Notes under the pieces: model-generated | The model's input: only the letters and a program-made list of their open reading frames with translations | Database searches by the model: none | Told to the model about the DNA's origin: nothing | NCBI GenBank assembly: GCA_903862245.1 | Contig: CAIOXL010000068.1 | Span: 1 to 35,606 of the forward strand | Direction of reading: 5' to 3' | Source: an uncultured Geobacteraceae bacterium | GTDB taxonomy: Bacteria > Desulfobacterota > Desulfuromonadia > Geobacterales > Pseudopelobacteraceae | DNA: 35,606 bases | Shown: in pieces, positions 12,784 to 33,999 of the stretch | How positions within the stretch are numbered: the stretch's first letter is position 1 | How the letters are laid out: each line of letters begins with the position of its first letter | Made by a program: the position numbers and the translations under genes

Positions 12784-12785
12784 AA

Positions 12786-13182: not shown

Positions 13183-15558
13183 TCAGTAGCCCAAGATTTT
13201 GAACGTAGCCGGGAAGGAGATATCCAATGCCGGAGCGGTTATTGTTTTTCCTGCCTGTTTGGTGGGCGAGACGACTACTGTCGGATCAACCACTGCACCG
13301 CGAAGGAGGAAATTTAACATCTGCGTCTGTGCCAGCGTTATGTTGGCCGGAACGGAAGGATCAATCAGGAATCCGTGGCTGATGCCAGCCTGATCAAACT
13401 GGAAGTACCCCTCCGACGGTGTGCTGGTTGTCGCATTCAGCACGGCGGCAAAAGCTGTTTTCGGCACCGCACCTCCCGCTGCCAGCGTGTACATGAATGT
13501 TGTCGGAATACGCGGCGTAGCGGCGCCCAGGTAACCAAGCTGGCTGAAACCGGGTGCAACCGCAGCGCCGGCAATTCCCAGGACCTCACGCCCGCCAAGG
13601 GCATTACCAAGGTACCGAGTGTTGGCATTGGGGATGACCTGATCGCCCACCGCTTCCTGGATGGCGATACGTCCCGACAGACGTGACGGCAGACCGCTTG
13701 CAAGCGGCGTCGTCATGGTGGCCGGGTCAACCGGATCGAAAACACTCTGGGTTACCTGGAAGAAATTGTGATACGTGGGGCTGTTCTTGGCGATGCCCAC
13801 AGCCAGGAGTCCGGCATCTATAGTGCTGGAAAAAGCCGGGCTGTTCTGCATTAGGTACGCAACGCGGCCACCAGGGACACTCAGAAAACCTTTCATGTCG
13901 CTGTTAAGGGTCGTCTGGGTGTAGGGATAGCCGGTTGTGGCAAGGGTGGTATTGCCGGCCAGATAGTAAGAACCAACTATGGACCCGAGACTGAGGCCGA
14001 CGTACTTGATGTCAACCGTTGGCGCGGGTACGATCCCTTGTGCACCAAAGCCTCCTGTCCTCATGGTTAATTCCAGTCGGTTGAGGTTAACCGCGGCCTG
14101 CTGGACGTTTGAACGCGTGGCCAATGGTGCGCCAATCGCCATGAAATCCTGGCCCCAGACAGCTCCAGTAGTATGCCCTGCAACCGCAAGAGCCCCATGG
14201 AGCGGGAGATCAATCGCTGCGACAGTGTACCCTGCGGCTGTCAGCGAACCTGCAACGGCAACAACCTGTTCTTTCTGTCCAGTTATTCCGTGTTGGAAGA
14301 TGACTACTTTCCCGTTTGAAGTTGTCGGAGTGATAAGAACAAACGGTACTGAGCGAAGCGTGTGATAGTAACCGGTCAGATTAGCACCGGTCCGGAACGC
14401 CTGTACCACCCCTGCAGCCGGATTGTAGGCGCCGGCAACGGCAGAAAGATCCATAGTGGCGGCGTTGGCTTTTGCCACTACCGGATCAATCGAGAGGTCG
14501 GCGCTGTTGATGGTTCCGTTTACGACGCTCTTGACTGTTGCAGGCGCAGTCGTTGCCGCTTTCATAACCGCAGACCAGTACGCGTCTGGCGAGGGATTTA
14601 CCCCCCCCTTGTCAAACGTGGTCGTCACGGTAACCGTGTTGGTCCATGTTTTGCCTGTCAGCCCCCCAAGAGCCGCCCCGGCGGAGAAGGCACGCAGGGC
14701 GCTTTCCACCGGCATCATGGATGCGGTTGAACCGGTACCGTCTTTGGAAACGTACCCTGCGCCGGTGGTTATAAAACGACCCAGGAGCGAGATGTCGTTA
14801 CGGCTGGCAACTTTGGTGGTGGCAGAAGCCGTGATCAGATCATCCATAACCTTTGCGTAGCCTGAAAGCTTTACAATGGTTTTTCCCGCATCGGCATACA
14901 CGTTGTCACGAATAGCCTCCAGCCCGGCGAATGCCCCGAGCAGCGGTGTTGTAGCCTTAAGCGCTTCAAAATAGAACGAACCGCTTAGCGATCTACCTGA
15001 AGCGGCGTCCTTGACACCGCTGGTGACTACGTACAGATAGCGGGTACCGGGAAGCAACGGAAATTTCGGGAAGAGATGGAGATTGGGATACACTGTCGTA
15101 CCGACGGTGTCAGCGCTGTAGCTATAATCAAACAGGGCTGAAATATCGGTAAAACCCAACGAGCTGTTTTCTGTCAAGCCGTTTGAATCAATGCCAAGCT
15201 GAAACACCTTGACGGTTGCCGGCGTAACGGTGGCCGGATCTACCGGCTGTTGAAAGCGGATGTAGATCGGTGCATTCAGGCCGGATACGGCACTGGTCCC
15301 ACCCATTTCGTACTGGTTTACATATGCCAGCGCCGCTGAGGGGTCCATCGGTTTATTAACCGCTCTATTCAAAAGCGGATCGGCGGCGGTGGCAGTTGCC
15401 AAAATATTGGGAAGCGGCACATTGCCAAGACTCGGGTCAAAAACGGCGGTATTGGCACTGACTGTAGAAGCTGGTGGCGGGTCTGTTGCGGCGGCACTGC
15501 AGCCAAAAGCGACCAAAATCGGCAGGAGTAACAGAAAATTTCTAACGGTCGTGTACAT
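13183..15558 (-). CDS. VolA/Pla-1/cef-type extracellular lipase (lipoprotein)
   Basis: A 791-residue exported alpha/beta-hydrolase. The signal is MYTTVRNFLLLLPILVAFGC with a lipobox-like AFGC (Cys20), so it is probably a lipoprotein. The N-terminal part (PLPNILATATAADPLLNRAVNKP..., PIYIRFQQPVDPATV) resembles the virulence-factor lipase N-terminal domain. The catalytic triad is visible: oxyanion region IFQHGITG, nucleophile GLSLG with Ser523, Asp639 in VGDQV, and His728 in GISHG. ATG 15558 is chosen because AGGGGA sits about 6 bases upstream; a TTG at 15573 is in frame. In Vibrio, VolA is a surface lysophospholipase encoded beside a fadL gene, as here. Substrate is inferred. Confidence 0.85.
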   Translation of the reverse strand: MYTTVRNFLLLLPILVAFGCSAAATDPPPASTVSANTAVFDPSLGNVPLPNILATATAADPLLNRAVNKPMDPSAALAYVNQYEMGGTSAVSGLNAPIYIRFQQPVDPATVTPATVKVFQLGIDSNGLTENSSLGFTDISALFDYSYSADTVGTTVYPNLHLFPKFPLLPGTRYLYVVTSGVKDAASGRSLSGSFYFEALKATTPLLGAFAGLEAIRDNVYADAGKTIVKLSGYAKVMDDLITASATTKVASRNDISLLGRFITTGAGYVSKDGTGSTASMMPVESALRAFSAGAALGGLTGKTWTNTVTVTTTFDKGGVNPSPDAYWSAVMKAATTAPATVKSVVNGTINSADLSIDPVVAKANAATMDLSAVAGAYNPAAGVVQAFRTGANLTGYYHTLRSVPFVLITPTTSNGKVVIFQHGITGQKEQVVAVAGSLTAAGYTVAAIDLPLHGALAVAGHTTGAVWGQDFMAIGAPLATRSNVQQAAVNLNRLELTMRTGGFGAQGIVPAPTVDIKYVGLSLGSIVGSYYLAGNTTLATTGYPYTQTTLNSDMKGFLSVPGGRVAYLMQNSPAFSSTIDAGLLAVGIAKNSPTYHNFFQVTQSVFDPVDPATMTTPLASGLPSRLSGRIAIQEAVGDQVIPNANTRYLGNALGGREVLGIAGAAVAPGFSQLGYLGAATPRIPTTFMYTLAAGGAVPKTAFAAVLNATTSTPSEGYFQFDQAGISHGFLIDPSVPANITLAQTQMLNFLLRGAVVDPTVVVSPTKQAGKTITAPALDISFPATFKILGY

Positions 15559-15578
15559 GGCGTCTCCCCTCAATTAAA

Positions 15579-16946
15579 TTAAAATTTTACGGTTATGTTG
15601 GCGCCGAAGAGATGAGCATCACTCTTGTACGTGCCATTTTGACCGGTCAGTTCTGTCATGTTCTGGTTACTCGAAGTTCTGTCAACCCAATGCACCCACA
15701 TATACGCGCAATCAAGGGCAACAGAATCGTTATGGATACCCATCCCCATGGCAAAATTGTGCCGATCACTGTCAGGGAGTTCCGGTCCGAGGGTTTCGTT
15801 GGGAATCGGATTGACGTCATAGGAGTACCCAGCTCGTAGGTCGAGATTTTTGTTATAAGAGTACTGCCCCCCCACCTTGTAAGCCCAGACATCCTTCCAA
15901 TTTTTAGCTGCGGGTTTACCGTTAAATACATTGAGCTTTGATGCGGGACCAAAAGCGATTTCAAGTTTATTGTAGGAACTCCAACCGGTCCGTTCGGCGT
16001 CAAATTCAAGCGTCAGCTGGTCAGTCGGCTTCCAGGCTACCCCCAAAATCAGGCTGTCAGGCAGCGTAATGGTGGTTGAGGCGGTGGAGGTGAAACGTGC
16101 TCGGGTAAATGGTATCGCACTTGACGGGAGAACGGTGTAATCGATCCCCATGGCGCTCAGACCGGCAGGGCTTGTGGCCAGGAAGTTTGCATCACCATCG
16201 ATATGGAGGGTAATCTCGCTACGATAGGCGGCTCCAAACGACAGCTCTTTCAGCGGTTTCCAGAGGATGCCGGCATTCCATCCCACATCGGTGGCGGTGC
16301 CATCCACACCAAGCTCACCAAGCTCAAACGCGCCGTAAGGCGCGCCGCCGGTTATTGTACTCACGTGGGCGCTCTTTTGAAGCGTCACGATCGTATGGGT
16401 TATGTCAACACCGGCGGCAACCGCGAGATTCATGCTATCAAAGCGATATGCCGCCGTTGGCTGAAAGTTGATCGGTTTTATGGCCAGATTCTCTATCTGG
16501 TTGCGGAACGAACTGCTGTTGTCCCAGCTCTTGGCAAGTGGATAGATCGAGTTGACGCCCAGACCGACGGTGAGCGGCATTGCTTCAAATGAATAGGTTG
16601 CATACAGTGACGGTGCAATGAAAAGATCCCGCTTGGCCTTCTCAAAGACCGGCGATGTGCCGTTACCGAGGGGGTTATTTCCGGACAAGGGGGTTGTCCC
16701 GATATACTCAGTCTGGGGCACCGCTATTATCAGCGATCCCAGGCTGATCTGCGTACCTTTCAGAAAGGCAATACCGGCCGGATTGTAGAAAAGGGCTGTT
16801 GGATCATCTGCCTGAGCGACAAACGCATTTGCCATCCCCATAGCTTTGGCACCCTGTTCGTTCACTTTGAAACCTGCCGCCACCGCCAGGGAAGCTGCCC
16901 CAGTCAGAGTTGCCAATATACCCGCGAGAATCAGTCCTTTTTTCAT
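15579..16946 (-). CDS. fadL: FadL-family outer-membrane fatty acid transporter
   Basis: A 455-residue outer-membrane beta-barrel that takes long-chain fatty acids or other hydrophobic compounds across the outer membrane. The signal peptide ends near AVAA (about 24), and the mature N-terminus GFKVNEQGAKAMGMANAFVA followed by ALFYNPAGI is the FadL hatch signature (NEQG and YNPA). The protein ends NITVKF with a terminal Phe, the usual barrel-insertion signal. The ribosome site AAGGAG lies within the end of the RHH gene, whose TGA is one base before this ATG, so the two are coupled. Twenty bases separate it from the lipase gene downstream. The pair matches a VolA-FadL module. Confidence 0.94.
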   Translation of the reverse strand: MKKGLILAGILATLTGAASLAVAAGFKVNEQGAKAMGMANAFVAQADDPTALFYNPAGIAFLKGTQISLGSLIIAVPQTEYIGTTPLSGNNPLGNGTSPVFEKAKRDLFIAPSLYATYSFEAMPLTVGLGVNSIYPLAKSWDNSSSFRNQIENLAIKPINFQPTAAYRFDSMNLAVAAGVDITHTIVTLQKSAHVSTITGGAPYGAFELGELGVDGTATDVGWNAGILWKPLKELSFGAAYRSEITLHIDGDANFLATSPAGLSAMGIDYTVLPSSAIPFTRARFTSTASTTITLPDSLILGVAWKPTDQLTLEFDAERTGWSSYNKLEIAFGPASKLNVFNGKPAAKNWKDVWAYKVGGQYSYNKNLDLRAGYSYDVNPIPNETLGPELPDSDRHNFAMGMGIHNDSVALDCAYMWVHWVDRTSSNQNMTELTGQNGTYKSDAHLFGANITVKF

Positions 16947-16947
16947 T

Positions 16948-17130
16948 TCAACACTCCTTTCTGTATGTAAGATCTACAGCCTGCTGCATGTACATTTTCA
17001 ATGCATCTCTCATGATTTCTGACACACGTGCGCCTCTTTCCAGCGCACAGTTTTTAATCACCCCCCATTCAGCATTGCTGACTCTCATGGATAATACGTG
17101 GTTGCGAAGATATCTTGAATTCGGTTTCAT
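16948..17130 (-). CDS. Ribbon-helix-helix (Arc/CopG-like) DNA-binding protein
   Basis: A 60-residue basic protein with the RHH layout: a short strand (HVLSMRVSN), helix A (AEWGVIKNCALERG), the turn ARVSE, then helix B (IMRDALKMYMQQAV). Such proteins act as dimeric repressors. It is the first gene of the fadL-lipase unit, and its stop codon is separated by one base from the fadL ATG, so it is co-translated with fadL. A clear Shine-Dalgarno sequence is not seen before ATG 17130. Position suggests an autoregulator of fadL and perhaps of the divergent beta-oxidation operon through the palindromes at 17199-17216 and 17543-17566. DNA target and ligand are unproven. Confidence 0.75.
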   Translation of the reverse strand: MKPNSRYLRNHVLSMRVSNAEWGVIKNCALERGARVSEIMRDALKMYMQQAVDLTYRKEC

Positions 17131-17186: not shown

Positions 17187-17216
17187 AAACTATGACAGCT
17201 TGACACTCATGTCAAG
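17187..17216 (-). promoter_or_regulatory. Promoter and operator palindrome for RHH-fadL-lipase
   Basis: The perfect palindrome CTTGACA-CTCA-TGTCAAG lies at 17199-17216. On the minus strand its TTGACA (17215-17210) forms a perfect -35, with TAGTTT (17192-17187) 17 bases further as a modest -10. The leader would be about 50 bases. A protein bound to the palindrome would cover the -35 box. The core CTTGAC-N6-GTCAAG is identical to that at 17543-17566. Confidence 0.65.
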
Positions 17217-17542
17217 GACTAATTATTTCAATTTTATGTCCGGCTTATGATGGCAAAATACCGTAAACTTTTTTCAAATAATACCGGGGCGTAACCGCAT
17301 AGTTAATTACAAATATAATCATTTAATTTCAAGTTCTTATTTCAATTATTACCGTATTATGGCTATACGTATGTAAGTAAAAACTTCGATAATATTCAAA
17401 AATATTCTTCAGTATTATGAACCTCTGACAAGAGGCAACTAATAATAGTATGTCCATACGCAGGATGCTGAAGCGGGATTGTTTTTAGAAAAGCTCGTCA
17501 CTTCAAAACAAAAATAGAATTAAATTATATAGAATAAAATTT

Positions 17543-17566
17543 ATACTTGACATGAAGGTCAAGTAT
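17543..17566 (+). promoter_or_regulatory. Operator palindrome in front of the fadD operon
   Basis: ATACTTGAC (17543-17551) and GTCAAGTAT (17558-17566) form a perfect 9-bp inverted repeat with a 6-base spacer. TTGACA at 17547-17552 could be a -35, with a poor -10 TAGCGT 17 bases on. Alternatively TATACT at 17542-17547 could be a -10 with a weak -35. Either way the palindrome overlaps the promoter, as expected for a repressor site. It is 41 bases before the fadD ATG. Confidence 0.7.
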
Positions 17567-17606
17567 ATATAGCGTTACTCAAAAGGAAGTACCTGGAGGT
17601 GAACGC

Positions 17607-19418
17607 ATGAACAGCGCGATATTTCAGTCCGTACCAGACATGCTCAGAAGTAACGCCGGTGAATTCAGCAACAGGCTTGCCCTTAAATACCGCAAGCAGG
17701 GCACCCTTGTTACCCTGACGTACGCTGCCCTCTACGAGCGGGTGCTGATGGTTTCCAGGGGACTCGGCAAGATGCGTGTCAAGCCGGGCGACCGGATTGC
17801 GATTCTTTCTGAAAACAGGGCCGGCTGGGTTATCGCTGACATGGGGATTCTCTCCGCCGGCGGCATTACCGTACCGATTTATCCCACCAACACCCCCGAG
17901 CAGATCCAGCATATGATTAACCACTCGGGAGCCAGAATCATTTTCGTCTCCGGGAAATTCCAGTACACCAAACTCCTGAAGATACGGGATGAGATCCCGG
18001 GACTGGAACTGGTTGTTTCGTTCGAGCGTTTTCTCGGCGAACCTTCACTGCCGGTCACAACCTTCTACCAGCTTTCGGAGATAGATTCCGTCATCACGCC
18101 GGAAGAAAAGAAGGATCTCGAGGCAGGAATCGACCGGATCGAGCCGGGCGATGTGCTGACACTGATTTACACCTCCGGCACCACCGGAGTGCCAAAAGGG
18201 GTCATGCTGTCACACAACAACATTCTCACCAATACCGAGTATCTGACAACACAGAGCAAAGCCATCACCAAAGAAGACACCCTGCTGAGTTTTCTCCCCT
18301 TAAGCCACATTCTGGAAAGAACCGCCGGCTATTACATGACCATCCGCAATGGCGCCCTGCTGGCATTTGCCGACAGCATTGAAAAAGTTGCGGAAAATAT
18401 GGCCGAAATCAGGCCGACCGTCATGGTCTGCGTGCCGCGCCTGTTTGAAAAAATTTACCACCGCATATTCGAGAATGCCCACCAGATGCCGGCCATAAAA
18501 CGGGCCCTGTTCCACTGGGGGGTCGACATCGGCAAAAAATATGTCGCGGCAACCTACATAGAAAAACAGCCTTCCACGGTGCTCAATATCAAATACGCCA
18601 TTGCAAACCGCTTGATTTTCAGCAAGATCAGGGCAAAGTTCGGCGGCAATATGAAACTGTTCTGCTCAGGCGGCGCCCCTCTGGATAAAACCATCAACGA
18701 GTTTTTCTGGGTCCTCGGTATCCCGATTTTTGAAGGGTATGGCTTGACTGAAACCAGCCCGGCTCTCTGCTTCAATACGTTTGAGCATATCCGCTTCGGC
18801 TCGGTGGGTGTCGCCCTGGACCAGACGGAGTTCAAAATCGCCGAGGACGGTGAAATCCTGGTGAAGGGGCCGCAGATCATGCTCGGTTATTACGAAGATC
18901 CGGCTGCCACGGCCGACGCTATTCAGGGAGGGTGGTTCAAAACCGGAGATATCGGCCACATTGAAGACGGCTTTGTCTACATTACCGACCGCAAAAAAGA
19001 GCTGATTATCACGGCAGGGGGTAAAAACATCGCCCCGCAACCGATCGAAAATGCGTTGAAGATGGACAAGTATGTTTCCTCAGCATTTGTCTACGGCGAC
19101 GGCAAACCATATCTGACCGCCCTGATCGTGCCGAATCTGGAGCGCCTGCTGGAGTTTGCCAAGGATAAACATGTTAACTATTACGAACTGGACGATCTGG
19201 TTATGCATGAGCCGGTTCAGAAGCTGTTCGAGCAGCGGCTGGCGGAAATTAACAGCCACCTGGCGCCGTATGAAACCATCAAGAAGTTTGTACTGCTGGT
19301 CCACGATTTTTCCATTGAAGGGGGTGAACTGACGCCGACACTGAAGCTAAGGCGTAAGATCATTTATGAAAAATACAAGCACCGCATCGAGGATTTGTAC
19401 ATTGATCACAACAATTAA
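17607..19418 (+). CDS. fadD: Long-chain fatty acyl-CoA synthetase
   Basis: Activates fatty acids to acyl-CoA with ATP and CoA; 603 residues, membrane-associated or cytoplasmic. The ANL-superfamily motifs are complete: P-loop YTSGTTGVPKG (188-198), GYGLTETSP (about 376-384), GWFKTGDIG (about 435-443) and the C-terminal DRKKELIITAGGKNIAPQ hinge region. The length and LSHILERTAGYY segment fit the 'FadD15/long-chain' subgroup. GGAGGTGAACGC precedes ATG 17607, giving a strong ribosome site. It is the first gene of a 12-gene run and is preceded by an operator-like palindrome. This enzyme would trap fatty acids brought in by FadL. Confidence 0.95.
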   Translation: MNSAIFQSVPDMLRSNAGEFSNRLALKYRKQGTLVTLTYAALYERVLMVSRGLGKMRVKPGDRIAILSENRAGWVIADMGILSAGGITVPIYPTNTPEQIQHMINHSGARIIFVSGKFQYTKLLKIRDEIPGLELVVSFERFLGEPSLPVTTFYQLSEIDSVITPEEKKDLEAGIDRIEPGDVLTLIYTSGTTGVPKGVMLSHNNILTNTEYLTTQSKAITKEDTLLSFLPLSHILERTAGYYMTIRNGALLAFADSIEKVAENMAEIRPTVMVCVPRLFEKIYHRIFENAHQMPAIKRALFHWGVDIGKKYVAATYIEKQPSTVLNIKYAIANRLIFSKIRAKFGGNMKLFCSGGAPLDKTINEFFWVLGIPIFEGYGLTETSPALCFNTFEHIRFGSVGVALDQTEFKIAEDGEILVKGPQIMLGYYEDPAATADAIQGGWFKTGDIGHIEDGFVYITDRKKELIITAGGKNIAPQPIENALKMDKYVSSAFVYGDGKPYLTALIVPNLERLLEFAKDKHVNYYELDDLVMHEPVQKLFEQRLAEINSHLAPYETIKKFVLLVHDFSIEGGELTPTLKLRRKIIYEKYKHRIEDLYIDHNN

Positions 19419-19442
19419 GTGGTACAGACGGGGAGGGATATA

Positions 19443-21830
19443 ATGAAACAGATTAACAAAGTAGCAGTTCTGGGAGCGGGTGTGATGGGGGCGACTATCG
19501 CCGCACACCTCGCCAACGCAGGAATTCAGGTTCTTCTGCTCGATATCGTACCGAGGGAGCCGAACGAGGCCGAACAGGCAGCAGGTCTCACCGTCGCCGA
19601 CAGCGCGGTGCGCAATCGCATCGCCGCCGCCGGACGGGACGGGTTGCTGAAAATGAAGCCGGCCCCCTTCTTCCTGCCGGGGTATGCGGGCAACATCGAA
19701 ATCGGCAATTTTGACGATGACATGCACAAACTGCAGGAGTGCGACTGGGTTGTGGAGGTTGTCATTGAGAACATGGCGATCAAGAAGCGGCTCTTCACCG
19801 AAAAGGTCGCCCCGAACATGAAGGAGGGGGCGATCCTCTCCACCAACACCAGCGGCCTCTCTGTCAACGAGATGGCAGAATGCCTCCCGGAGGGTCTCCG
19901 GAGGAACTTCCTGGTCACGCATTTCTTCAACCCGCCGCGCTATATGCGCCTGTTGGAGATCGTCCCCTGTTCTGCAACCGATCCGGCCGTCACCGCATTC
20001 ATGGCCGATTTCATCTCCCGGCGACTCGGCAAGGGGATTGTCTATGGCAAGGACACCCCCAACTTCATTGCCAACCGGATTGGTGTGTATGCCATCTGCA
20101 ACTGCGTACGGAGCATGTTGGAGAACGACATGACCGTTGAGGAGGTGGACGCCGTCGCCGGACCGGCCACCGCCCGCCCAAAAAGTGCGGCCTTCCGCAC
20201 CGCCGATCTGGTGGGGATTGATACGCTCCGCCATGTGGCCGACAACTCCCATGAGCTGTTGAACAATGACGAACAACGCGACATTTTCAAACTGCCTGAC
20301 TTTGTCGGCGAAATGGTGGCCAAGGGACTGCTGGGCAACAAAAGCAGAGGGGGATTCTTCAAGAAGACCAAAGGGGCAAAAGGGCAGGAGTTTTTCTATT
20401 ACGATTACAAAACCGGCGAGTATGCACCATCGCTCCGCCCCAAATTTGCATCCGTTGAAGCGGCCAAAGCGATCGACGACCCGGCCAAGCGCCTTCAGGC
20501 GGTCATCACCGGGAGCGACAAGGGGGCCCGCTTTGCCTGGAGCAACCTGCGCGACACCCTGATCTACGCCTATAACCGGATTCCGGAGATCGCCGACGAC
20601 ATCGTCAACATCGATAATGCCATGAAATGGGGCTTCAACTGGGAACTCGGGCCGTTCGAGATGCTGGATGCGATCGGGGTACCCTATTTCGTTGAGCGGG
20701 CCGAACGGGACGGCGTCCCGGTCCCGGCCGGGCTCAAAACGGTGGAGCGGTTCTACAAATTCGAGGGGGGACGTACCTGCTACTACAGCCTCCCTGACGG
20801 AGAATACCGCGAAGTGCCGCAGAAAAAGGAACAGATCAGCCTTTCCATCCTCAAAAGGAACAACAGGGTACTGGAAAAGAACAGCGGAGCGTCCCTGATC
20901 GATCTTGGTGACGGCGTATTCTGCCTTGAGTTCCACACCAAAATGAACGCCATCGGCGGCGAAATTCTTGCCATGGTTCACAAAAGCATCAAGCGGACAG
21001 AAGATGAAGGTATCGGTCTGGTCATCGCCAACGAAGGGAGTATGTTCTCGGCCGGCGCCAACCTGATGCTGCTAGTGATGGCCATCGCCGAGGGGGAATT
21101 TGATGAGATCGCCATGACGGTCCGGGCCTTCCAGAAAGCGATGATGGCGATCAAATACTCCAAAATTCCGGTGGTGGCCGCGCCGCACAATCTGGTCATG
21201 GGTGGCGGCTGCGAAACCTGCCTCCACGCGGACGCCATCATTCCCCACGCTGAAACCTACATGGGGCTGGTGGAACTCGGGGTCGGCCTGCTCCCGGCCG
21301 GGGGGGGGACCAAAGAGATGGCGGTTCGCGCCATCCAGCTCGCCGAAACATACGAGCTTGACGCAGCACCCTTCATCTTCAAGAACTTCATGAATATCGC
21401 CATGGCAAAGGTCAGCATGTCCGCCGCTGAACTGGCGCCCATGGGCTTCATGCGCCAGGGGGATGCCATCACCATGGATCTGGAAAAGCGCATCCATGAT
21501 GCCAAGCTGAAGGCAATCTCACTGGCCGCCAACTACCGTCCCGGCCGGCCATTGACCGGCCTGAAAGCGCCCGGCCGCAGCGTGGCCGCCTCCATCAAGT
21601 CCCAGCTCTGGAACATGCAGAAGGGCGGCTTCATCTCCGAATATGACCAGTATCTGGCCGGCATGGTCGCCGATGTCATTACCGGCGGAAATGTTCCGGC
21701 CGGCACAGTCATCACGGAGGAATATCTGCTGGATCTGGAGCGCGAAGCCTTTGTCCGCCTCTGCGGGCAGAAAAAAACCCTGGAGCGCATCCAGCACATG
21801 CTCAAGAAGGGCAAGCCGCTGCGCAATTAA
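19443..21830 (+). CDS. fadN: 3-hydroxyacyl-CoA dehydrogenase / enoyl-CoA hydratase fusion (FadN type)
   Basis: Bifunctional beta-oxidation enzyme of 795 residues that hydrates enoyl-CoA and oxidises 3-hydroxyacyl-CoA with NAD. The dehydrogenase half comes first: Rossmann GAGVMG (11-16), LSTNTSGLSV, THFFNPPRYM and KDTPNFIANRIG. The crotonase half is C-terminal, with GGGCE (Glu591) and ELGVGLLPAGGGT (Glu611); the 20-residue spacing equals that of the two catalytic Glu in classical hydratases. This HAD-then-ECH order is that of Bacillus FadN, not of E. coli FadB/FadJ. ATG 19443 is chosen for GGGAGG 7 bases upstream; a GTG at 19419 is in frame. The following fadA and fadE complete a fadNAE-like set. 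Confidence 0.93.
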   Translation: MKQINKVAVLGAGVMGATIAAHLANAGIQVLLLDIVPREPNEAEQAAGLTVADSAVRNRIAAAGRDGLLKMKPAPFFLPGYAGNIEIGNFDDDMHKLQECDWVVEVVIENMAIKKRLFTEKVAPNMKEGAILSTNTSGLSVNEMAECLPEGLRRNFLVTHFFNPPRYMRLLEIVPCSATDPAVTAFMADFISRRLGKGIVYGKDTPNFIANRIGVYAICNCVRSMLENDMTVEEVDAVAGPATARPKSAAFRTADLVGIDTLRHVADNSHELLNNDEQRDIFKLPDFVGEMVAKGLLGNKSRGGFFKKTKGAKGQEFFYYDYKTGEYAPSLRPKFASVEAAKAIDDPAKRLQAVITGSDKGARFAWSNLRDTLIYAYNRIPEIADDIVNIDNAMKWGFNWELGPFEMLDAIGVPYFVERAERDGVPVPAGLKTVERFYKFEGGRTCYYSLPDGEYREVPQKKEQISLSILKRNNRVLEKNSGASLIDLGDGVFCLEFHTKMNAIGGEILAMVHKSIKRTEDEGIGLVIANEGSMFSAGANLMLLVMAIAEGEFDEIAMTVRAFQKAMMAIKYSKIPVVAAPHNLVMGGGCETCLHADAIIPHAETYMGLVELGVGLLPAGGGTKEMAVRAIQLAETYELDAAPFIFKNFMNIAMAKVSMSAAELAPMGFMRQGDAITMDLEKRIHDAKLKAISLAANYRPGRPLTGLKAPGRSVAASIKSQLWNMQKGGFISEYDQYLAGMVADVITGGNVPAGTVITEEYLLDLEREAFVRLCGQKKTLERIQHMLKKGKPLRN

Positions 21831-21838
21831 TTGCTAGC

Positions 21839-21930
21839 TTCCCCTCCCGCAAGGGGGCGGGGGAACTTTAAAAGTTACACCACACCAGTTCCTGATTCAT
21901 TCAATAGTCCCCACTTTAAAAGGGGGATGT
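21839..21930. repeat. GC-rich palindromic repeat, copy 3, between fadN and fadA
   Basis: The 120-base fadN-fadA gap holds TTCCCCTCCC pairing with GGGCGGGGGAA around a GCAAG loop, then AACTTT-A-AAAGTT, and further on CCCCACTTT with AAAGGGGG. The first stem resembles copies 1 and 2. Located inside an operon, it may set an RNA-processing or stability boundary. Confidence 0.55.
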
Positions 21931-21950
21931 ATCCGTTACGGAGGCCGTAC

Positions 21951-23123
21951 ATGAGAAAAGCATATATTCTTGCTGCATACCGCACCCCCGCCTGCCGGGC
22001 TAAAAAAGGGAAACTGAAGGATGTCCGCCCGGACGATCTCGCCGCCGTCGCCATCAAGGGACTGCTGGAGAGGACCGGCATAGATCCTCACGATATCGAT
22101 GACATCATCATGGGGTGCGCCTTTCCCGAAGGGGAACAGGGAATGAACTTCGCACGGGTGGCCGCACTGAAGGCCGGCGTGCCCATCGAGGTCCCGGCCC
22201 AGACGGTCAACCGTTTCTGCTCCTCCGGCCTGCAGACAATCGCGTCGGCAGCGGAACGGATCATGGCCGGATTTGCCGACTGCATTATCGCCGGCGGAGC
22301 CGAAAGCATGAGCATGATCCCCATGGGCGGGGGGAAATACAGCGCCAACCCGTCCCTCATGGCCAGTTGGCCGGAGGCCTTTGCTTCCATGGGGATTACG
22401 GCGGAACTGGTTGCGGAAATTTATGGCGTCAGCCGCGAGGATCAGGACGCCTTTGCCGCCGCCAGCCACACCAAAGCCGCCGCAGCCATCGCCGCAGGAA
22501 AATTCAGGGACGAAATTATCCCGGTAGCAACGGAGATCTGCACGCTGGTCAATGGGAAGATGAAATGCCGTACGGAACTGGTGGAGGGTGATGACGGCGT
22601 GCGCAGTGACACAACCGCCGCCGGACTGGCTAAATTGAAACCGGCCTTCAAGGCGAACGGCACCGTTACCGCCGGAAACGCATCCCAGATGACCGACGGA
22701 GCCGCAGCGGTACTGGTGGTCTCGGAAGAGTACCTGGAAAAGATCGGTAAAAAAGCGCTGGCCCGTTTCATCGCCTTCGCCGTCAAGGGAGTGCCGCCGG
22801 AACTGATGGGAATCGGTCCGGTAGCTGCCATCCCTGCGGCACTGAAGCTGGGGGGGCTGTCGCTGGAGGATATCGGCCTGTTCGAACTGAACGAGGCATT
22901 TGCAGCCCAGTCCCTGGCCTGCGTCAAGGAGCTGGAGATCGACCCGGCCCGGGTCAACGTAAACGGTGGGGCGATAGCCCTTGGTCACCCCCTTGGCTGT
23001 ACCGGCGCCAAGCTGACCGCCTCTCTCCTTCAGGAGATGCGCCGCAGCAATACCCGTTACGGCATCGTCTCCATGTGCATCGGCGGCGGCATGGGTGCTG
23101 CGGCAATTTTCGAAAATATATAA
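21951..23123 (+). CDS. fadA: Acetyl-CoA acyltransferase (thiolase)
   Basis: Cleaves 3-ketoacyl-CoA with CoA to release acetyl-CoA, the last beta-oxidation step; cytoplasmic tetramer or complex partner. The 390-residue length is typical. The nucleophile Cys90 is in [18 protein letters not shown], His346 in [16 protein letters not shown] and the second Cys at 376 in [12 protein letters not shown] 21951 with GGAGG 8 bases upstream is preferred over an in-frame extension to 21831 that would run through the repeat. The start [13 protein letters not shown] is normal for the family. It follows the FadN-type gene and precedes fadE. Confidence 0.95.
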
Positions 23124-23148
23124 CTATATTCCCGTGCGAGGTGACATC

Positions 23149-24927
23149 ATGGCGACAAAACTCTACAAAGGTGCAGAATATCTGATCACAGCAACAGACA
23201 GGAACGACATCTTCACTCCGGAGGACTTCAGTGACGAGCAGCGGCAGATCGGCGACACGACCGAACAGTTCGTCCTGAACGAAGTGCTGCCGCACCGTGA
23301 CGAGATCGAGCATCACAACCTGCCGTTGACGGTTGAACTGATGAAAAAATGCGGCGAGCTGGGACTGTTGATGATCGACGCTCCCGAAGAGTACGGCGGG
23401 CTTGAACTGGACAAGGCCACCAGCATGCTGGCGGCTGAAAAGCTGTCTCAGGCCGGCTCGTTTTCCGTCACCTACTCGGCTCACACCGGTATCGGCACGC
23501 TGCCGCTGGTTTATTACGGCACCAGAGAGCAGAAAGACAAATATCTCGGCAAAATTATTTCCGGGGAGTGGATTGCGGCCTACTGCCTCACCGAACCGGG
23601 CTCCGGGAGTGATGCTCTGGGGGCGGCGGCAACCGCGACGCTCTCTGCCGACGGCACGCACTATATTCTCAACGGCACCAAGCAGTTCATCACCAACGGC
23701 GGCATAGCCAACCTCTACACCATTTTTGCCAAGATCGATAAACAGCACTTCACCGCCTTCCTGGTGGAGCGGAGCACCGAAGGCTTGAGCGTCGGCATGG
23801 AAGAAAACAAGATGGGGGTGCGGGGGTCGTCCACCACCCAGATCATCCTGGAAGACGCGGTCGTTCCGGTGGAAAACCTGCTGGGAGATATCGGCAAGGG
23901 GCACAAAATCGCCTTCAATGTCCTCAACGTGGGGCGCTTCAAGCTGGGGGCCGCCACCACCGGTGCAGCAAAAGTCGCACTGGCCACCGGAATCCGCTAT
24001 GCCAACGAGCGCAAGGCCTTTGGCGTCACGATCGGGACGTTCGGTGCCATCCAGGAAAAGATCGCCGACACCAGCGCCTCCATTTTTGCGGCGGAATCGT
24101 TGGTCTACCGTCTGGCCGGCCTGATCGACGACCGTCTTGCCACTCTTCCGAAAGATACGGCCAACTACTATGAAGCGTACCAGCAGGGGATTGAAGAGTA
24201 TTCTGTTGAATGCGCCGTTGCCAAGGTGTACTGCAGCGAGGTGCTGGCAGACGTGGTTGATGCCGTTGTCCAGATTCATGGCGGCTACGGCTTCATTCAG
24301 GAATATGCCGCCGAGGGTTACTACCGCGATGAACGCATCAACCGGATCTGGGAAGGAACCAACGAAATCAACCGTCTGCTGATCCCCGGCATCATCCTGC
24401 GGCGGGCCCTGAAGGGTGAAATCCCGCTCCAGAAAGAGGCGATGAAGGCGTTTGAATCACTGATGTCACCCTCATTTGACGAGCGGGACGATTCGATCCC
24501 CTTCGCGGCGGAAAAAGTGCTGGTCGCCGGCCTGAAGCAGGCGTTCCTGGTGCTTGCCGGCAGCGGAGTACAGAAATTCACCGACAAAATCAAGGACGAG
24601 CAGGAGATTCTGCTTGCCGTAGCCGACCTTGCCATATACATTTTTTCCATCGAAAGCTCCCTGCTGCGCGCCGAAAAGATCCTGCCGAAGCTGAGCGAAA
24701 GCAAAAAAGCCGCCGTATCAGCAGCAGTGAAGGTAATCACCTTCAACGGCGCCGAAAAGGCCGCCTCTGCCGCCCGCCGGGCCGCCTATTACATCGAGGA
24801 GGGGGACACCCTGACCATGCTGCTGGCCGGTATCCGCAGGTTCACCAAATACGATGCCACCGGGCTGCTCACGGCAAAACGCCACCTGGCTGCCGCCGCC
24901 CTTGAAGCGGAGAAATATATTTTCTGA
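23149..24927 (+). CDS. fadE: Acyl-CoA dehydrogenase
   Basis: FAD enzyme that makes the first double bond of beta-oxidation and passes electrons to ETF (etf genes are not in this window). The 592 residues are longer than the usual 380 because of a C-terminal helical extension of about 160 residues, as in Bacillus FadE (about 594). Motifs include AYCLTEPGSGSDA, TKQFITNGG, ERKAFG and the catalytic base Glu, about residue 402, in RIWEGTNEINR. GAGGTGA precedes ATG 23149, and an upstream in-frame ATG lies inside fadA. The fadN-fadA-fadE order equals the Bacillus fadNAE operon. Confidence 0.94.
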   Translation: MATKLYKGAEYLITATDRNDIFTPEDFSDEQRQIGDTTEQFVLNEVLPHRDEIEHHNLPLTVELMKKCGELGLLMIDAPEEYGGLELDKATSMLAAEKLSQAGSFSVTYSAHTGIGTLPLVYYGTREQKDKYLGKIISGEWIAAYCLTEPGSGSDALGAAATATLSADGTHYILNGTKQFITNGGIANLYTIFAKIDKQHFTAFLVERSTEGLSVGMEENKMGVRGSSTTQIILEDAVVPVENLLGDIGKGHKIAFNVLNVGRFKLGAATTGAAKVALATGIRYANERKAFGVTIGTFGAIQEKIADTSASIFAAESLVYRLAGLIDDRLATLPKDTANYYEAYQQGIEEYSVECAVAKVYCSEVLADVVDAVVQIHGGYGFIQEYAAEGYYRDERINRIWEGTNEINRLLIPGIILRRALKGEIPLQKEAMKAFESLMSPSFDERDDSIPFAAEKVLVAGLKQAFLVLAGSGVQKFTDKIKDEQEILLAVADLAIYIFSIESSLLRAEKILPKLSESKKAAVSAAVKVITFNGAEKAASAARRAAYYIEEGDTLTMLLAGIRRFTKYDATGLLTAKRHLAAAALEAEKYIF

Positions 24928-24943
24928 TTGCCACCGGAGCTCA

Positions 24944-25879
24944 ATGCACCAGCACACCGTACAGACCCCCTACATGGTCGGGGAAGTTCATTTTTACAGC
25001 ACCGAGCTCGATTGCGGCCCTGTACTGTTCGACACCGGCCCTCCGACACCGGAGGGCGAAGCCGCCCTGCTTCGGCACGTCGACCTTGCACGCCTGAAAT
25101 ACCTGTTCATAACCCATTGCCACGTGGACCACTACGGGCTGGCCAATTTCGTCACCCGCCAGAGCGATGCCGAGGTATTCATCCCCCGCAGTGACGCCAT
25201 CAAATTTCAGCGCCACGACGAGCGGATGGAGCGGATGTCCGCGCTGCTGGGGAGTTACGGCTTCGGCAGCGAACTGACCGTGCCGCTGAAAGAGTCATTC
25301 GAGCGGAACAAGGTTTTCCCCGCCGTGCCGGAGCGGTTCCGTATTGTGGAGGACACACCCGGACTGGCCGAACTCGGCATCAGCTACCTTCCCTGCCCGG
25401 GTCACTCCCAGAGCGACCTGGCCTACCTGGTGGGCGATGCGGCGGTCACCGGCGACATCCTCCTCAGGAATATCTTTCAGGCGCCGCTGCTGGATGTTGA
25501 CCTGAACACCTTTTCAGGACGCTTCCGCAACTACGATGCCTACTGCAATTCGCTGCTGGCTCTGGCACAGCTGCGTGGCCGGCGCATCATGCCGGGGCAT
25601 CGCCAGTATGTGAAAGGGGTTGACCAGGCAATTTTTTTCTATGTACGGACCCTGCTGGAACGTGCCGTACAGATCCGACCTCTGAGGATGCTCCCCATCA
25701 GCAGCATTCTGGATCAGCTCTTCAAGGGGAGGCTGGCCGAGCCGTTTTTTATCTATCTGAAAATTTCTGAGATCATCTTCATGCTCGACCTGCTGGAGAA
25801 TCCGGCGCCGCTCAAGGCGTCTCTGGAACAGATCGGCCTGTTCGATCAGGTGTACGCTCTGTATGAAGCTGTTGCATAA
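24944..25879 (+). CDS. MBL-fold metallo-hydrolase
   Basis: A 311-residue metallo-beta-lactamase-fold protein. The dinuclear metal motif THCHVDH gives His58, His60, Asp62 and His63. A further His is in CPGHSQSDL (about 155), Asp in VTGDILLRN, and a last His in MPGHRQY (about 225). It has no signal peptide, so it should be cytoplasmic. The start ATG 24944 has CGGAG 5 bases upstream; the longer open frame overlaps fadE. It lies 16 bases after fadE and 12 before fadH. A thioesterase or lactonase acting on acyl-CoA-type intermediates is one possibility given the operon; the sequence alone does not show the substrate. Confidence 0.85.
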   Translation: MHQHTVQTPYMVGEVHFYSTELDCGPVLFDTGPPTPEGEAALLRHVDLARLKYLFITHCHVDHYGLANFVTRQSDAEVFIPRSDAIKFQRHDERMERMSALLGSYGFGSELTVPLKESFERNKVFPAVPERFRIVEDTPGLAELGISYLPCPGHSQSDLAYLVGDAAVTGDILLRNIFQAPLLDVDLNTFSGRFRNYDAYCNSLLALAQLRGRRIMPGHRQYVKGVDQAIFFYVRTLLERAVQIRPLRMLPISSILDQLFKGRLAEPFFIYLKISEIIFMLDLLENPAPLKASLEQIGLFDQVYALYEAVA

Positions 25880-25891: not shown

Positions 25892-27895
25892 ATGATCGAC
25901 CCGCTTTTTCAACCAATCGTCATCAACCGGATGGCGGTCAAAAACCGCATCTTCATGCCGGCCATGCATATGAACATGGCCGGCAACTACGCGGTGAGCG
26001 ACCGACTGGTTGACTTCTACGCCGAACGGGCCCGGGGCGGAGCCGGAATGATCACCGTCGGCTACGCGACCGTGGATGAGCTTTCCGGTAACCCCGGCAA
26101 CATAGGCGCCCACAAGGATATCTACATTCCGGGGCTGGCCCGTCTGGCAGCAGCAATCCGGGACAACGGCGCCCGCTCCTCGGTCCAGCTGAACCATGCC
26201 GGCCGCTACAACCACTCCATGCTGACCGGAGGGCGGCAGCCGGTGGCCCCCTCACCCATCGCGTCACGCATGACCCGTGAAACGCCCCACGAGCTTGACC
26301 TGGCTGAGATCGAAGAAATCATCGCCTGTTTCGCCCGGGCGGCGGGACGCGTCAAAGCGGCCGGCTTCGATGCCGTTGAGATACTCTCCGGCACCGGCTA
26401 CCTGATCAGCGAATTTCTTTCACCGCTCACCAACAAACGGGAGGACCGCTACGGTGGCGACTTTGACGGGCGTATCCGCTTCGGCCTGGACATTATCAGA
26501 GCAGCCAGAGCGGTCGTGGGGGACGACTTTCCACTGTTGGTCAGGATGAACGGCAACGAATTCATGGCCGGTGGTTCGAATCGCCAGGAGCTTCAGGATT
26601 ACGCCGTTCGGCTGGAGGAAGCCGGAGTAGACGCCCTCTGCATAAACGTCGGCTGGCATGAAGCGCAGGTGCCGCAGATTGTCACCAAGGTCCCCCGTGG
26701 CGTCTTCGGCTATCTGGCCCGGGGCATCAAGGAGCGGGTCGCCATTCCGGTCATTGCCAGTCACCGCATCAATGATCCGGAGCTTGGCCGCAGTATGATC
26801 GCCGACGGCTACTGCGATATGGTGGCGCTTGGCCGGGCACTGATCGCCGACCCTTACTTCCCTGAAAAGGCCCGCAGCGGACGTGACGCCGATATCGTTC
26901 ACTGCGTCGCCTGCGCCCAGGGGTGTCTGGACAACCTCTTCAAAATGAAAGCGGTGGAATGCCTCTGCAACCCACGGGCCGGCTACGAACGGGCACGCGC
27001 CCTCACCAGAGCCGATTCACCGCTGACCGTCACCATTGTCGGCGGCGGCGCGGCCGGAATGAGCGCGGCTGTTTCCGCTGCCGAGCGGGGACACCGTGTG
27101 ACGCTCCATGAGGCCGGGGACCACCTTGGGGGGCAGCTCCTCCTCGCAGGCGCTCCTCCCGGACGTGAAGAGTTCCTGGAACTGGCCGCCGATCTGGAAC
27201 GGCAGCTGCACGTATCCGGTGCGACGGTCGTGCTGAACTCCACCGTCGATGCCCGGCTGCTGGAAAAAACAGAACCGGATGCACTGATTATCGCCACCGG
27301 CGGCCGACCGATCGCCCCGGCCATTCCGGGTGCTGACCTCCCCCACGTCGTCCAGGCCTGGGATATTCTGACGGGACATGCTATAACGGGACGACGGGTC
27401 GTTATCATTGGCGGCGGTGCCGTCGGCATCGAAACCGCTCTTTTCCTGGCGGAAAAGGGGACCCTTTCGGGAGAGGCTCTCAAATTCCTGCTGGTGCACC
27501 GGGCCGAGTCGCCCGAAGAGCTGTACCGCCTGGCAACCAGCGGGAGCAAAGATGTCACCGTTATCGAAATGCTGGGGGAACTGGGCAAGAATTTCGGCAG
27601 GAGCACCCGGTGGGGAATGATGCAGGATGTGGAACGGTACGGCATCAAGAGCCGGGCGACTGCCACGGTTGTGGAGATTACCGCCGATTGCGTCAGGATC
27701 GAGCAGGACGGCACGGTGGAAGAGATTGCGGCCGACTCCGTGGTGCTTGCCGTGGGAACGCGTTCCCATAACCCGCTGGGGGAAGCGGCAGCCGCCGCCG
27801 GCATCCCCTGTCTGATTGCGGGGGATGCTCTCAAGCCTGCCATGGTCTATGATGCTGTTCATCAGGGTTTTACAGCCGGCCGCACTATCGGCTGA
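25892..27895 (+). CDS. fadH: 2,4-dienoyl-CoA reductase (NADPH), FadH-like
   Basis: Removes double bonds at even positions during oxidation of polyunsaturated fatty acids; 667 residues. The N-terminal OYE-type barrel carries Tyr170 (GTGYLISEF) and His256 (GWHEA), which match the E. coli FadH catalytic Tyr166 and His252 with the same offset of four. The [4Fe-4S] ligands are Cys338, Cys341, Cys345 and Cys357 (CVACAQGC then C12 later), the same spacing as E. coli. The C-terminal half has FAD/NADPH Rossmann motifs (IVGGGAAGMSAA, IIGGGAVGIETA). GGGAGG sits before ATG 25892. It is embedded in the beta-oxidation operon, so the dienoyl-CoA role is favoured over other OYE-like reductases. Confidence 0.92.
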   Translation: MIDPLFQPIVINRMAVKNRIFMPAMHMNMAGNYAVSDRLVDFYAERARGGAGMITVGYATVDELSGNPGNIGAHKDIYIPGLARLAAAIRDNGARSSVQLNHAGRYNHSMLTGGRQPVAPSPIASRMTRETPHELDLAEIEEIIACFARAAGRVKAAGFDAVEILSGTGYLISEFLSPLTNKREDRYGGDFDGRIRFGLDIIRAARAVVGDDFPLLVRMNGNEFMAGGSNRQELQDYAVRLEEAGVDALCINVGWHEAQVPQIVTKVPRGVFGYLARGIKERVAIPVIASHRINDPELGRSMIADGYCDMVALGRALIADPYFPEKARSGRDADIVHCVACAQGCLDNLFKMKAVECLCNPRAGYERARALTRADSPLTVTIVGGGAAGMSAAVSAAERGHRVTLHEAGDHLGGQLLLAGAPPGREEFLELAADLERQLHVSGATVVLNSTVDARLLEKTEPDALIIATGGRPIAPAIPGADLPHVVQAWDILTGHAITGRRVVIIGGGAVGIETALFLAEKGTLSGEALKFLLVHRAESPEELYRLATSGSKDVTVIEMLGELGKNFGRSTRWGMMQDVERYGIKSRATATVVEITADCVRIEQDGTVEEIAADSVVLAVGTRSHNPLGEAAAAAGIPCLIAGDALKPAMVYDAVHQGFTAGRTIG

Positions 27896-28490: not shown

Positions 28491-28631
28491 ATAACTCGGA
28501 GCAACAAAGCAACGGAGTGAACACAAAAGAAAGATTTTTTTGAAACTGCCTTTTTGATGTGCACCGTACCGGTGATAGCTGTTTCTGTTGTAAGACCTTG
28601 ACTTCTCCGTTGCTCCGTTGCTCCGTGTTAT
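28491..28631. repeat. 141-bp MITE-like inverted repeat
   Basis: Left arm 28491-28517 and right arm 28605-28631 are 27-base inverted copies with three mismatches (left ATAACTCGGAGCAAC..., right ...GTTGCTCCGTGTTAT). The right arm is also a short tandem of CTCCGTTG. The 87-base centre contains a smaller CACCG-TAC-CGGTG stem and a T-run. It fills most of the 197-base gap between the CHI-like and thioesterase genes. It has no ORF, so it is a non-coding palindromic element. Confidence 0.8.
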
Positions 28632-28672
28632 TCGAACTACCGATTCCAGCTAATACCAGGGAGCCCACGTTC

Positions 28673-29059
28673 ATGTCCCAATCATTTTCCACCCCCATTG
28701 AACTGCGCTTTTCCGATCTGGACCTGTACGGCCATGTGAACAGCGTCGTCTATTTTTCCTATCTTGAAACAGCCCGGGTAAAACTGTTCGCCCGGTTTTT
28801 TCAGGCACTGACCGAACAGCAAATCTTCACGCTGGTCGCCCGTGCCGAGTGCGATTACCGGCTGCCGATCCTGTTCGGCGACCCGCTGATCGTTACTGTC
28901 GGCATAGCCAGGATCGGCACCACCAGTTTTGACCTGGAATACCACCTCCACAACGGCTCCGGAAAAACCTATGCCACCGCCCGCACCGCCATGGTATGCT
29001 TCGACAATGTCCGGAAAGTCACCGTCCCGGTGCCGGAATGCATCCGGACCATGGCCTGA
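28673..29059 (+). CDS. Hotdog-fold (4HBT-type) acyl-CoA thioesterase
   Basis: A 128-residue single hotdog domain. RFSDLDLYGHVNSVVYFSYLETAR carries the 4HBT signature DxDxxGHVNxxxYFxYxE, with Asp17 as the likely active acid. It probably hydrolyses a CoA thioester, which would relieve CoA or remove dead-end acyl-CoAs. ATG 28673 is preferred, with GGGAG about 9 bases upstream; the longer frame crosses the inverted repeat. It follows the inverted-repeat element and precedes the crotonase gene by 27 bases. The acyl preference cannot be read from the sequence. Confidence 0.88.
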   Translation: MSQSFSTPIELRFSDLDLYGHVNSVVYFSYLETARVKLFARFFQALTEQQIFTLVARAECDYRLPILFGDPLIVTVGIARIGTTSFDLEYHLHNGSGKTYATARTAMVCFDNVRKVTVPVPECIRTMA

Positions 29060-29086: not shown

Positions 29087-29872
29087 ATGAACAGCGCCTG
29101 TAGCGGTGATCAGATACAAACTGAGCTTTCGGAGGGGATTTTCACGATCAGGATCAACCGCCCCGAGAAGAAAAATGCGCTCACGACCGCCATGTATGGG
29201 GCCATGGCGGATGCACTGCAGCGGGGTGACAGCGATCCGGCCGTGCGGGTTATCCTTCTCTGCGGCTCTGCCGACTGTTTTACCAGCGGAAACGACATTG
29301 CCGATTTCATCAATTTTCCACCGACCGGACCGGAGAGCCCGGTGCTCCGTTTCCTCACCGCCATCGCCCGGGCAGAGAAGCCGGTTATGGCTGCGGTCAG
29401 CGGCACTGCCGTTGGAGTCGGCACGACCCTGCTGCTCCATTGTGATCTGGTGTACGCCGCCGACACGGCGCTCTTCCAGATGCCGTTCGTCTCCCTGGGG
29501 CTCTGCCCCGAAGCCGGCTCAACCCTGCTGCTTCCCCAGTTGATGGGACACCGCCGGGCTTCGGAACTGCTGCTGTTCGGCGAGTCATTTACCGCCGCCC
29601 GCGCTGAACAGCTCGGCATCGTCACCGCTCTGCTGCCGCAGGAAGATCTTCTCCGGACCGTACGGGCCAAAGCCCTTCAGCTTGCGGCACAACCGGCGGC
29701 AGCGGTCCGGCTGACCAAATCACTCCTGAAACGGGACAATGCCGAAAAACTCCTGGAAACGGCTGCCTGTGAAATTTGCTGTTTTCTGGAGCGGCTCGCC
29801 TCGCCGGAAGCCGGAGAGGCGCTGCGGGCGTTCATGGAACGAAGAAAACCGGACTTCTCGCAGTTCGACTGA
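29087..29872 (+). CDS. Crotonase-family protein, likely delta3-delta2-enoyl-CoA isomerase
   Basis: A 261-residue crotonase-fold enzyme. The usual hydratase Glu in GGGCE is replaced: GVGTT has Thr114. The second position, 20 residues on, is Phe134 in place of Glu. A Glu does occur at 142 in LCPEAGS, the arrangement of peroxisomal-type enoyl-CoA isomerases (SPEG motif). This suggests isomerisation of cis/trans-3-enoyl-CoA to trans-2-enoyl-CoA, needed for unsaturated chains and complementing FadH. Other features: NRPEKKNALTTAMY, SGNDIADF (oxyanion region) and a C-terminal helical section. The start ATG 29087 has AAAGGGGA upstream. It lies 11 bases before the aldehyde dehydrogenase gene. Confidence 0.85.
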   Translation: MNSACSGDQIQTELSEGIFTIRINRPEKKNALTTAMYGAMADALQRGDSDPAVRVILLCGSADCFTSGNDIADFINFPPTGPESPVLRFLTAIARAEKPVMAAVSGTAVGVGTTLLLHCDLVYAADTALFQMPFVSLGLCPEAGSTLLLPQLMGHRRASELLLFGESFTAARAEQLGIVTALLPQEDLLRTVRAKALQLAAQPAAAVRLTKSLLKRDNAEKLLETAACEICCFLERLASPEAGEALRAFMERRKPDFSQFD

Positions 29873-29883
29873 AGGAGAATGCC

Positions 29884-31458: not shown

Positions 31459-31467
31459 GAGCTGAAT

Positions 31468-33600: not shown

Positions 33601-33999
33601 TTATTTGAGCAGGTTGAACTGATCGACGATTCTCTGGCGGTAGGCGGTAATATCCTTTTCCAGCGATTGGAGGGTTGACACCTTCTGCCGGATGCTTTTG
33701 AGGTGGGTATCCAGAAGTTCGGTCAGACGCGGCATGATCTTCTCCGGCACCTGATGCTCCTGGTCGTACAGCTGGGCCAATTCCTTCATCTCTTCCAGAG
33801 AAAGCCCCAATTCCTTGACCTTCAGAACAAACTTGAACCGTTTTACGTCCGCTTTTTCATAATACCTGACCCGGCCGTCCGTCCGCTTGGGAGGGTCCAC
33901 CAGCCCCAGTTTTTCATACAACCGGATTGTCCGGGTGGTAATTCCCAGCATATCGGCCAGATCACTGATCTGCATATGTTCTTCGTTACTCAACCTCAT
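33601..33999 (-). CDS. MerR-family regulator, LiuR-like
   Basis: A 132-residue transcription regulator. The N-terminal winged helix-turn-helix reads MQISDLADMLGITTRTIRLY then EKLGLVDPPKRTDGRVRYY, and is followed by KVKELGLSLEEMKELAQLYD and a long dimerisation coiled coil to residue 132. No metal-binding Cys is seen, so it is not a metal sensor. It resembles LiuR, which regulates branched-chain and fatty acid degradation in other proteobacteria. The ATG 33999 has GAGGTGAAG upstream; an internal Met9 is an alternative start. It faces the end of the beta-oxidation operon. Regulation of that operon is inferred from family and position. Confidence 0.82.
   Translation of the reverse strand: MRLSNEEHMQISDLADMLGITTRTIRLYEKLGLVDPPKRTDGRVRYYEKADVKRFKFVLKVKELGLSLEEMKELAQLYDQEHQVPEKIMPRLTELLDTHLKSIRQKVSTLQSLEKDITAYRQRIVDQFNLLK

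Follow-up and report, generated by a model that had tools for sequence, protein, structure and literature searches.

Two 18-bp palindromes separate the divergent fadL and fadD operons of the window, the term used here for the whole 35,606-nt stretch of DNA that was analysed. They are probably operators of a MerR-family protein encoded at the end of the fadD operon. Repression by this protein would be lifted by acyl-CoA or a related intermediate, and fatty-acid uptake, beta-oxidation and a presumed ETF:menaquinone oxidoreductase (EMO) would come under joint control. From sequence comparisons we infer that the protein binds the sites directly, that it represses instead of activating, and which ligand it responds to; acyl-CoA is suggested as the signal by the nature of the target genes.

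The fadL operon lies on the minus strand. Its first gene encodes a small RHH-like protein of 60 aa (16948..17130), for which only a sub-cutoff match to DUF6290 was obtained. A FadL-type outer-membrane fatty-acid transporter (15579..16946; Pfam Toluene_X/FadL) and a VolA/Pla-1-like lipase (13183..15573; NCBIfam TIGR03502, E 3e-38, under the curated cutoff) follow. Beyond the lipase gene, positions 12232-13091 of the same strand encode a lipocalin (Pfam Lipocalin_2) and a 101-aa protein that is SCP2-like by eye and has no Pfam match; both may belong to the fadL operon. In Vibrio, FadL occurs with a VolA-type lipase. The neighbourhood of fadL and a VolA/Pla-1-like lipase gene is the same here, although the lipase falls below the family cutoff and the proposed regulator differs. 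On the plus strand, the beta-oxidation operon begins with a FadD-like acyl-CoA synthetase (17607..19418; Pfam AMP-binding), followed by a 3-hydroxyacyl-CoA dehydrogenase/enoyl-CoA hydratase fusion (19419..21830; Pfam), a thiolase (21831..23123; Pfam) that likely starts at an internal ATG near 21942, an acyl-CoA dehydrogenase (23095..24927; Pfam) and a metallo-beta-lactamase-fold protein (24854..25879; Pfam Lactamase_B). Next come an Old-yellow-enzyme/pyridine-nucleotide oxidoreductase (25892..27895; Pfam Oxidored_FMN and Pyr_redox_2), presumably 2,4-dienoyl-CoA reductase-like, a thioesterase (28559..29059; Pfam 4HBT_2) and an enoyl-CoA hydratase family protein (ECH, 29087..29872; NCBIfam). The merR gene (33601..33999, minus strand) is convergent to the fadD operon and located at its end.

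The operator-like palindrome of the fadD operon, CTTGACATGAAGGTCAAG, occupies positions 17546-17563 of the plus strand and is enclosed by a 24-bp extended palindrome, ATACTTGAC-N6-GTCAAGTAT, at 17543-17566. That of the fadL operon, CTTGACACTCATGTCAAG, lies at 17199-17216 and reads CTTGACATGAGTGTCAAG on the minus strand. The initial annotation had reported palindromes at 17199-17216 and 17543-17566 with a common core, CTTGAC-N6-GTCAAG, each overlapping a TTGACA box and facing opposite directions. Both palindromes were found at these positions, with the TTGACA boxes at 17547-17552 on the plus strand and 17215-17210 on the minus strand. The free N6 centre described there has to be corrected: the central bases are constrained across relatives, in which the consensus of the site in gene orientation is about CTTGACAYG-nn-YGTYAAG, an 18-bp dyad. 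The exact core occurs only twice in the whole window, 347 bp apart and between the two divergent operons. It was absent from 300 dinucleotide shuffles of the window and from 3000 shuffles of the 476-nt intergenic stretch. With up to two mismatches allowed, the window contains 6 matches compared to 1.2 expected.

Both sites have the same relation to a predicted promoter: the left arm holds the -35 hexamer TTGACA and is followed, exactly 17 bp on, by TAnnnT. The predicted fadD promoter spans 17547..17575 on the plus strand, with TAGCGT at 17570-17575 as its -10 box, and the predicted fadL-operon promoter spans 17187..17215 on the minus strand, with TAGTTT at 17192-17187.

Conservation of the two sites was assessed in 39 genomes of the genus, with a threshold of E<=1e-100 for fadD orthologues. 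These were found in 20 of the 39 genomes, at 23 loci. All 23 carry the fadD site, which ends 38-46 nt before the fadD start and is exact in 11 loci and altered at one of the 12 core bases in the other 12. The fadL-side site is present with at most two mismatches in 21 of the 23 loci, four of which have two; at the remaining loci, L126 and L127, neither a fadL-side site nor a fadL gene was found beside fadD. The earlier proposal to look for the motif before fadL and fadD orthologues was thereby carried out, and the site persists at both operons. The suggestion of one factor for import, lipase and beta-oxidation is supported. A common operator-like site, conserved across species, thus stands before several fad operons, as in a fad regulon. 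The TA of the -10 box at 17-bp spacing is invariant in the 23 loci. In a site-anchored alignment, the right arm GTYAAG, with mostly C or T as its third base, is conserved to roughly the same degree as the -35 arm. Since a promoter has no need of GTYAAG, this conservation counts for an operator.

The bare pattern is not over-frequent: in the 39 genus genomes it gives 55 matches compared to 72 for the reversed-pattern control. Bare-pattern counts showed no excess and were dropped as evidence; the case therefore rests on the place of the sites and on their conservation. The absence of enrichment, together with a left arm that is a consensus -35 box, is what could be expected if the palindromes were due to chance, as two ordinary -35 boxes with accidental symmetry. 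The probability of this explanation is practically nil, since the core never arose in the 300 window shuffles, the right arm is kept like the left one in 23 loci, and the motif recurs at three unrelated promoters; conservation already refutes it.

The third of these promoters was located outside the window. Across the whole genome the exact pattern occurs at 13 places, which are nine copies of one contig-end repeat, one site inside an open frame, the window pair and one site on contig C187. The nine repeat copies and the site in the open frame, ten matches altogether, were left out of the regulon. The repeat carries CTTGACAGCGGGGTCAAG and has an identical left edge at nine contig ends of G000 (C19, C28, C51, C79, C84, C90, C96, C131 and C192; loci L001-L003, L006-L010 and L013). 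It is probably a mobile element collapsed in the assembly and unrelated to the operators. The C187 site stands before a gene whose product is a membrane Fe-S protein containing a nitrate-reductase-gamma-like domain; the genes of EtfB and EtfA come next. We take the Fe-S protein to be EMO, that is, ETF:menaquinone oxidoreductase-like. EtfD, a presumed EMO homologue, is discussed in the accessible part of PMC13083937. The EMO-etfBA operon is the third conserved target of the motif, away from the fad locus. The same dyad and the same geometry (TTGACA, N17, TA-hexamer) are found at all three promoters, in 23/23 loci for fadD, 21/23 for the fadL side and 16 anchored loci for EMO.

Which protein reads the sites was approached by comparing genomes with and without an orthologue of the MerR protein. 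At E<=1e-40, the orthologue is present in 23 of the 39 genus genomes (MerR+). All 20 fadD genomes are MerR+, and fadD was found in none of the 16 MerR- genomes of the genus. Outside the genus, the fadD site is present in all 14 testable MerR+ genomes out of 15; in the remaining one, G112, fadD is cut at a contig end, and G056 was counted as MerR+ on account of a fragment of 66% identity at the end of a contig. Conversely, in 16 of 19 MerR- genomes outside the genus the 700 nt before fadD contain no site with fewer than two mismatches; G074, one of the 16, has a two-mismatch match at -636. At a MerR cutoff of E<=1e-45, the three exceptions are G058 and G067, which keep fadD sites, and G135, which keeps two-mismatch sites. 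The contigs of these three genomes and of G105 end before the usual place of merR, and an assembly gap is a possible explanation for the missing gene. Second fadD copies exist in G083, with an exact core, and in the MerR+ genome G084, with no site. Since merR, fadD and usually fadL sit in one locus, their co-occurrence partly reflects shared inheritance.

EMO provides a natural control, because it is present both with and without MerR. With one EMO copy per genome and 30 of 37 EMO matches examined, 16/22 MerR+ genus genomes have a site with zero or one mismatch before EMO, versus 0/8 MerR- genus genomes (Fisher p 5e-4, relatedness ignored). In G005, EMO is split and its start, with a one-mismatch site, lies on another contig; counting this genome brings the MerR+ genus genomes with a site to 17. 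As for MerR+ genomes scored as lacking it, the site position holds three mismatches in G052 and G008, only 67 nt are available upstream of EMO in G048, and G046 has an EMO paralogue only. The nearest relative, G007, is MerR+ and has no site before EMO. Outside the genus, all MerR- genomes with EMO were compared (38 genomes, best EMO copy each, two copies for G105), and a site with at most one mismatch was found in a single one, before the G105 copy on a 4.5-kb contig. Over the MerR- genomes of the order, in and out of the genus, this amounts to 1/46. In the MerR- genomes G066 and G072 a match with two mismatches occurs, though as far as 360-470 nt upstream of EMO. Ten MerR+ loci outside the genus include the EMO start. 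In seven of them a site with zero or one mismatch lies at a distance of up to 400 nt; in two of these seven, G084 and the G111-like L154, it lies at -297 and -129 and not near -65. The other three, G076, G082 and G128, have a two-mismatch EMO site at -53 to -59. The EMO control is largely free of the shared-locus effect, though related genomes are not independent.

The arrangement of the genes in several genomes also counts for merR. In G083, G089, G091, G112 and G017, merR and EMO are divergent with the site between them, and in G035 the site lies between merR and etfB. These sites between merR and a divergent neighbour in several genera, and the way in which site presence tracks the MerR orthologue, both argue against an unlinked regulator, such as a TetR or GntR analogue of FadR, that would read the sites. 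In favour of such a factor, the fatty-acid degradation regulators tabulated elsewhere are GntR or TetR proteins, as given in the part of PMC5343134 consulted, and only MerR and RHH candidates were screened in these genomes. On balance we regard an unlinked regulator as decidedly unlikely. The initial annotation had listed a MerR factor among its candidates, and from the comparisons above the MerR protein at 33601-33999 (minus strand) appears to be the likeliest regulator, ahead of the RHH protein.

The RHH protein, encoded at 16948-17130, had been the other candidate named. Its gene adjoins the fadL site in many loci, and the 16 of 39 genus genomes in which it was detected at E<=1e-6 are all MerR+. 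At this threshold no RHH match was obtained in G005, G017, G045, G046, G008 and G019, and in G003, G039 and G052 (L171, L176 and L175) the gene contains an in-frame TGA and looks to be decaying. All nine genomes keep the fadD site with 0 or 1 mismatch, and EMO sites persist in the RHH-less G045, G019 and G017. Binding of the RHH protein to the palindromes is thus highly improbable and this candidate was rejected, undetected or broken as it is in nine genomes that keep the fadD site. The protein may modulate fadL.

This genome, which is 92.65% complete, encodes three MerR_1 proteins at E<=1e-5. A second MerR lies at C187:34178-34546 of G000. In G000, G017 and G023 it shares its contig with an ACAD2-EMO-etf cluster; G020 and G013 encode a 59% relative immediately next to the first MerR (L035, L042, L056 and L057 are the loci concerned). 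Orthologues of the second MerR with 71, 82 and 74% identity occur in the MerR- genomes G001, G018 and G023, respectively, where EMO has no site. The second MerR was rejected as the regulator for this reason.

The candidate regulator is a protein of 132 aa that belongs to the MerR family, with matches above cutoff to Pfam MerR_1 (E 5e-19) and MerR-DNA-bind (E 2e-12). A phmmer search with it returned CueR, CadR and MerR chains, with which it shares its domains. It differs from these metal activators by its scores far below the NCBIfam cutoffs, its lack of cysteine and the 17-bp spacer of its putative target promoters. The best equivalog score against the metal-sensing families (CueR, CadR, ZntR, MerR) is 87, compared to a 151-bit cutoff. 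Cysteine is absent from the protein and from all 18 aligned MerR proteins (17 orthologues and one 48% relative), and a metal sensor of the CueR kind is therefore unlikely. Five actinobacterial loci with 24-35% identity were left out of one 22-locus set. A tblastn search of plasmids gave matches below 60% identity, the ten among the matches listed all being CadR.

In the part of PMC5045206 consulted, MerR-family sites are numbered so that symmetric positions sum to 19, which corresponds to 18 bp, and MerR activators are described as occupying the interval between the two boxes, at promoters whose spacers measure 19-20 bp, and as untwisting the DNA. This long-spacer arrangement is not what we find: at fadD, fadL and EMO the predicted promoters have a 17-bp spacer and the dyad covers the -35 box. 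The same MerR protein could also depend on a ligand to activate transcription, as classical MerR proteins do. Activators are the best-known members of the family, the -10 boxes of fadD and fadL (TAGCGT and TAGTTT, for example) are weak, and the offset between operator and promoter is identical at all three promoters. We consider activation unlikely, since the spacer is 17 bp instead of the 19-20 bp described in that part of PMC5045206 and the dyad is placed over the -35 box instead of in the interval between the two boxes. Several EMO -10 boxes, moreover, are near consensus (e.g. TATATT and TATAAC), and the operator position is fixed because the site includes TTGACA.

With a predicted 17-bp spacer and a dyad over the -35 box, blocking of the polymerase is the simplest action, and repression is the mode that we favour. 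A MerR dimer would most likely occupy each 18-bp dyad. Because the dyad overlies the -35 hexamer and extends into the 17-bp spacer, of which it takes up the upstream part, bound MerR would exclude RNA polymerase. Acyl-CoA, or a related intermediate, would release the protein. Release would turn on uptake and the lipase through the RHH-fadL-lipase operon, activation and beta-oxidation through the fadD operon, and the unlinked EMO-etfBA operon, by which electrons would pass to menaquinone.

Control of merR itself through the same site does not appear to be general, as the 300 nt before merR contain a dyad with no more than one mismatch in just one of the 25 genus loci. A degenerate palindrome (ATTGAC-N6-GGTRAAG) stands directly before the merR ATG, for instance at 1898-1915 of L014. 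Located at -19, it has two mismatches in 17 of the 25 loci and three in 6. It overlaps the likely ribosome-binding site and was excluded as an operator; autoregulation may act weakly through it, or it may serve ribosome binding only.

Regulators of comparable role are known. In the available part of PMC5343134, the regulators named are FadR, PsrA and FadP where fatty acids are concerned, and LiuR in the case of branched-chain amino acids. FadR (GntR), PsrA and FadP (TetR), as far as these descriptions go, resemble the present case in that one regulator serves dispersed operons of fatty-acid degradation, among them fadL in the case of FadR. The protein family differs, being MerR here; this comparison is one of role, operators aside. 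According to the parts of PMC3223726 and PMC5343134 consulted, LiuR belongs to the MerR family and represses the breakdown of branched-chain amino acids in Proteobacteria. By these descriptions it shares with our candidate the MerR family, the repressor role and a breakdown regulon that yields acyl-CoAs. Its targets differ from those here, which are fatty-acid uptake, activation, beta-oxidation and ETF:menaquinone oxidoreductase, LiuR being compared by description only. In the literature searched, with RegPrecise and most subscription journals outside its scope, we came across no regulator of long-chain fatty-acid breakdown that belongs to the MerR family, nor any account of the operator, of a LiuR motif or of a Geobacter fad regulon. 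Within that scope, a fad regulon under a protein family different from those described would be new.

Geobacter relatives respire fatty acids anaerobically. The same search, again with RegPrecise and most subscription journals outside it, returned no description of their fatty-acid switch. The candidate regulator, its readable operator and the regulon by which uptake, beta-oxidation and the ETF:menaquinone step would be coupled make up a directly testable model. It would also be a clear case of a MerR protein in a role held by GntR or TetR proteins elsewhere. A wider proposal is tentative and, in our estimate, falls slightly short of even: these proteins might form an undescribed class of MerR-family acyl-CoA sensors, acting as plain -35 repressors at promoters of normal spacing and replacing FadR, PsrA and FadP in Geobacterales. 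As part of the same tentative proposal, this class might be the master switch of fatty-acid uptake, beta-oxidation and a dedicated electron exit to menaquinone.

On contig C4 of G002 (L067), a site with an exact core, TTGACA, 17 bp and TATATG precedes an enoyl-CoA hydratase-like gene. A neighbouring frame is EtfB-like by eye, making this a further candidate target in G002. In the window, positions 29776-33547, between the ECH gene and merR, contain genes for an aldehyde dehydrogenase, a cholesterol-oxidase-like GMC oxidoreductase and a small protein that is presumably DUF2147-like. These genes have the same place in G007 and were not seen between ECH and merR in the other genus loci mapped. 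In G128 the aldehyde dehydrogenase gene is close to merR, and G135 has it on its fad contig; the gene of the small protein adjoins merR in G084.
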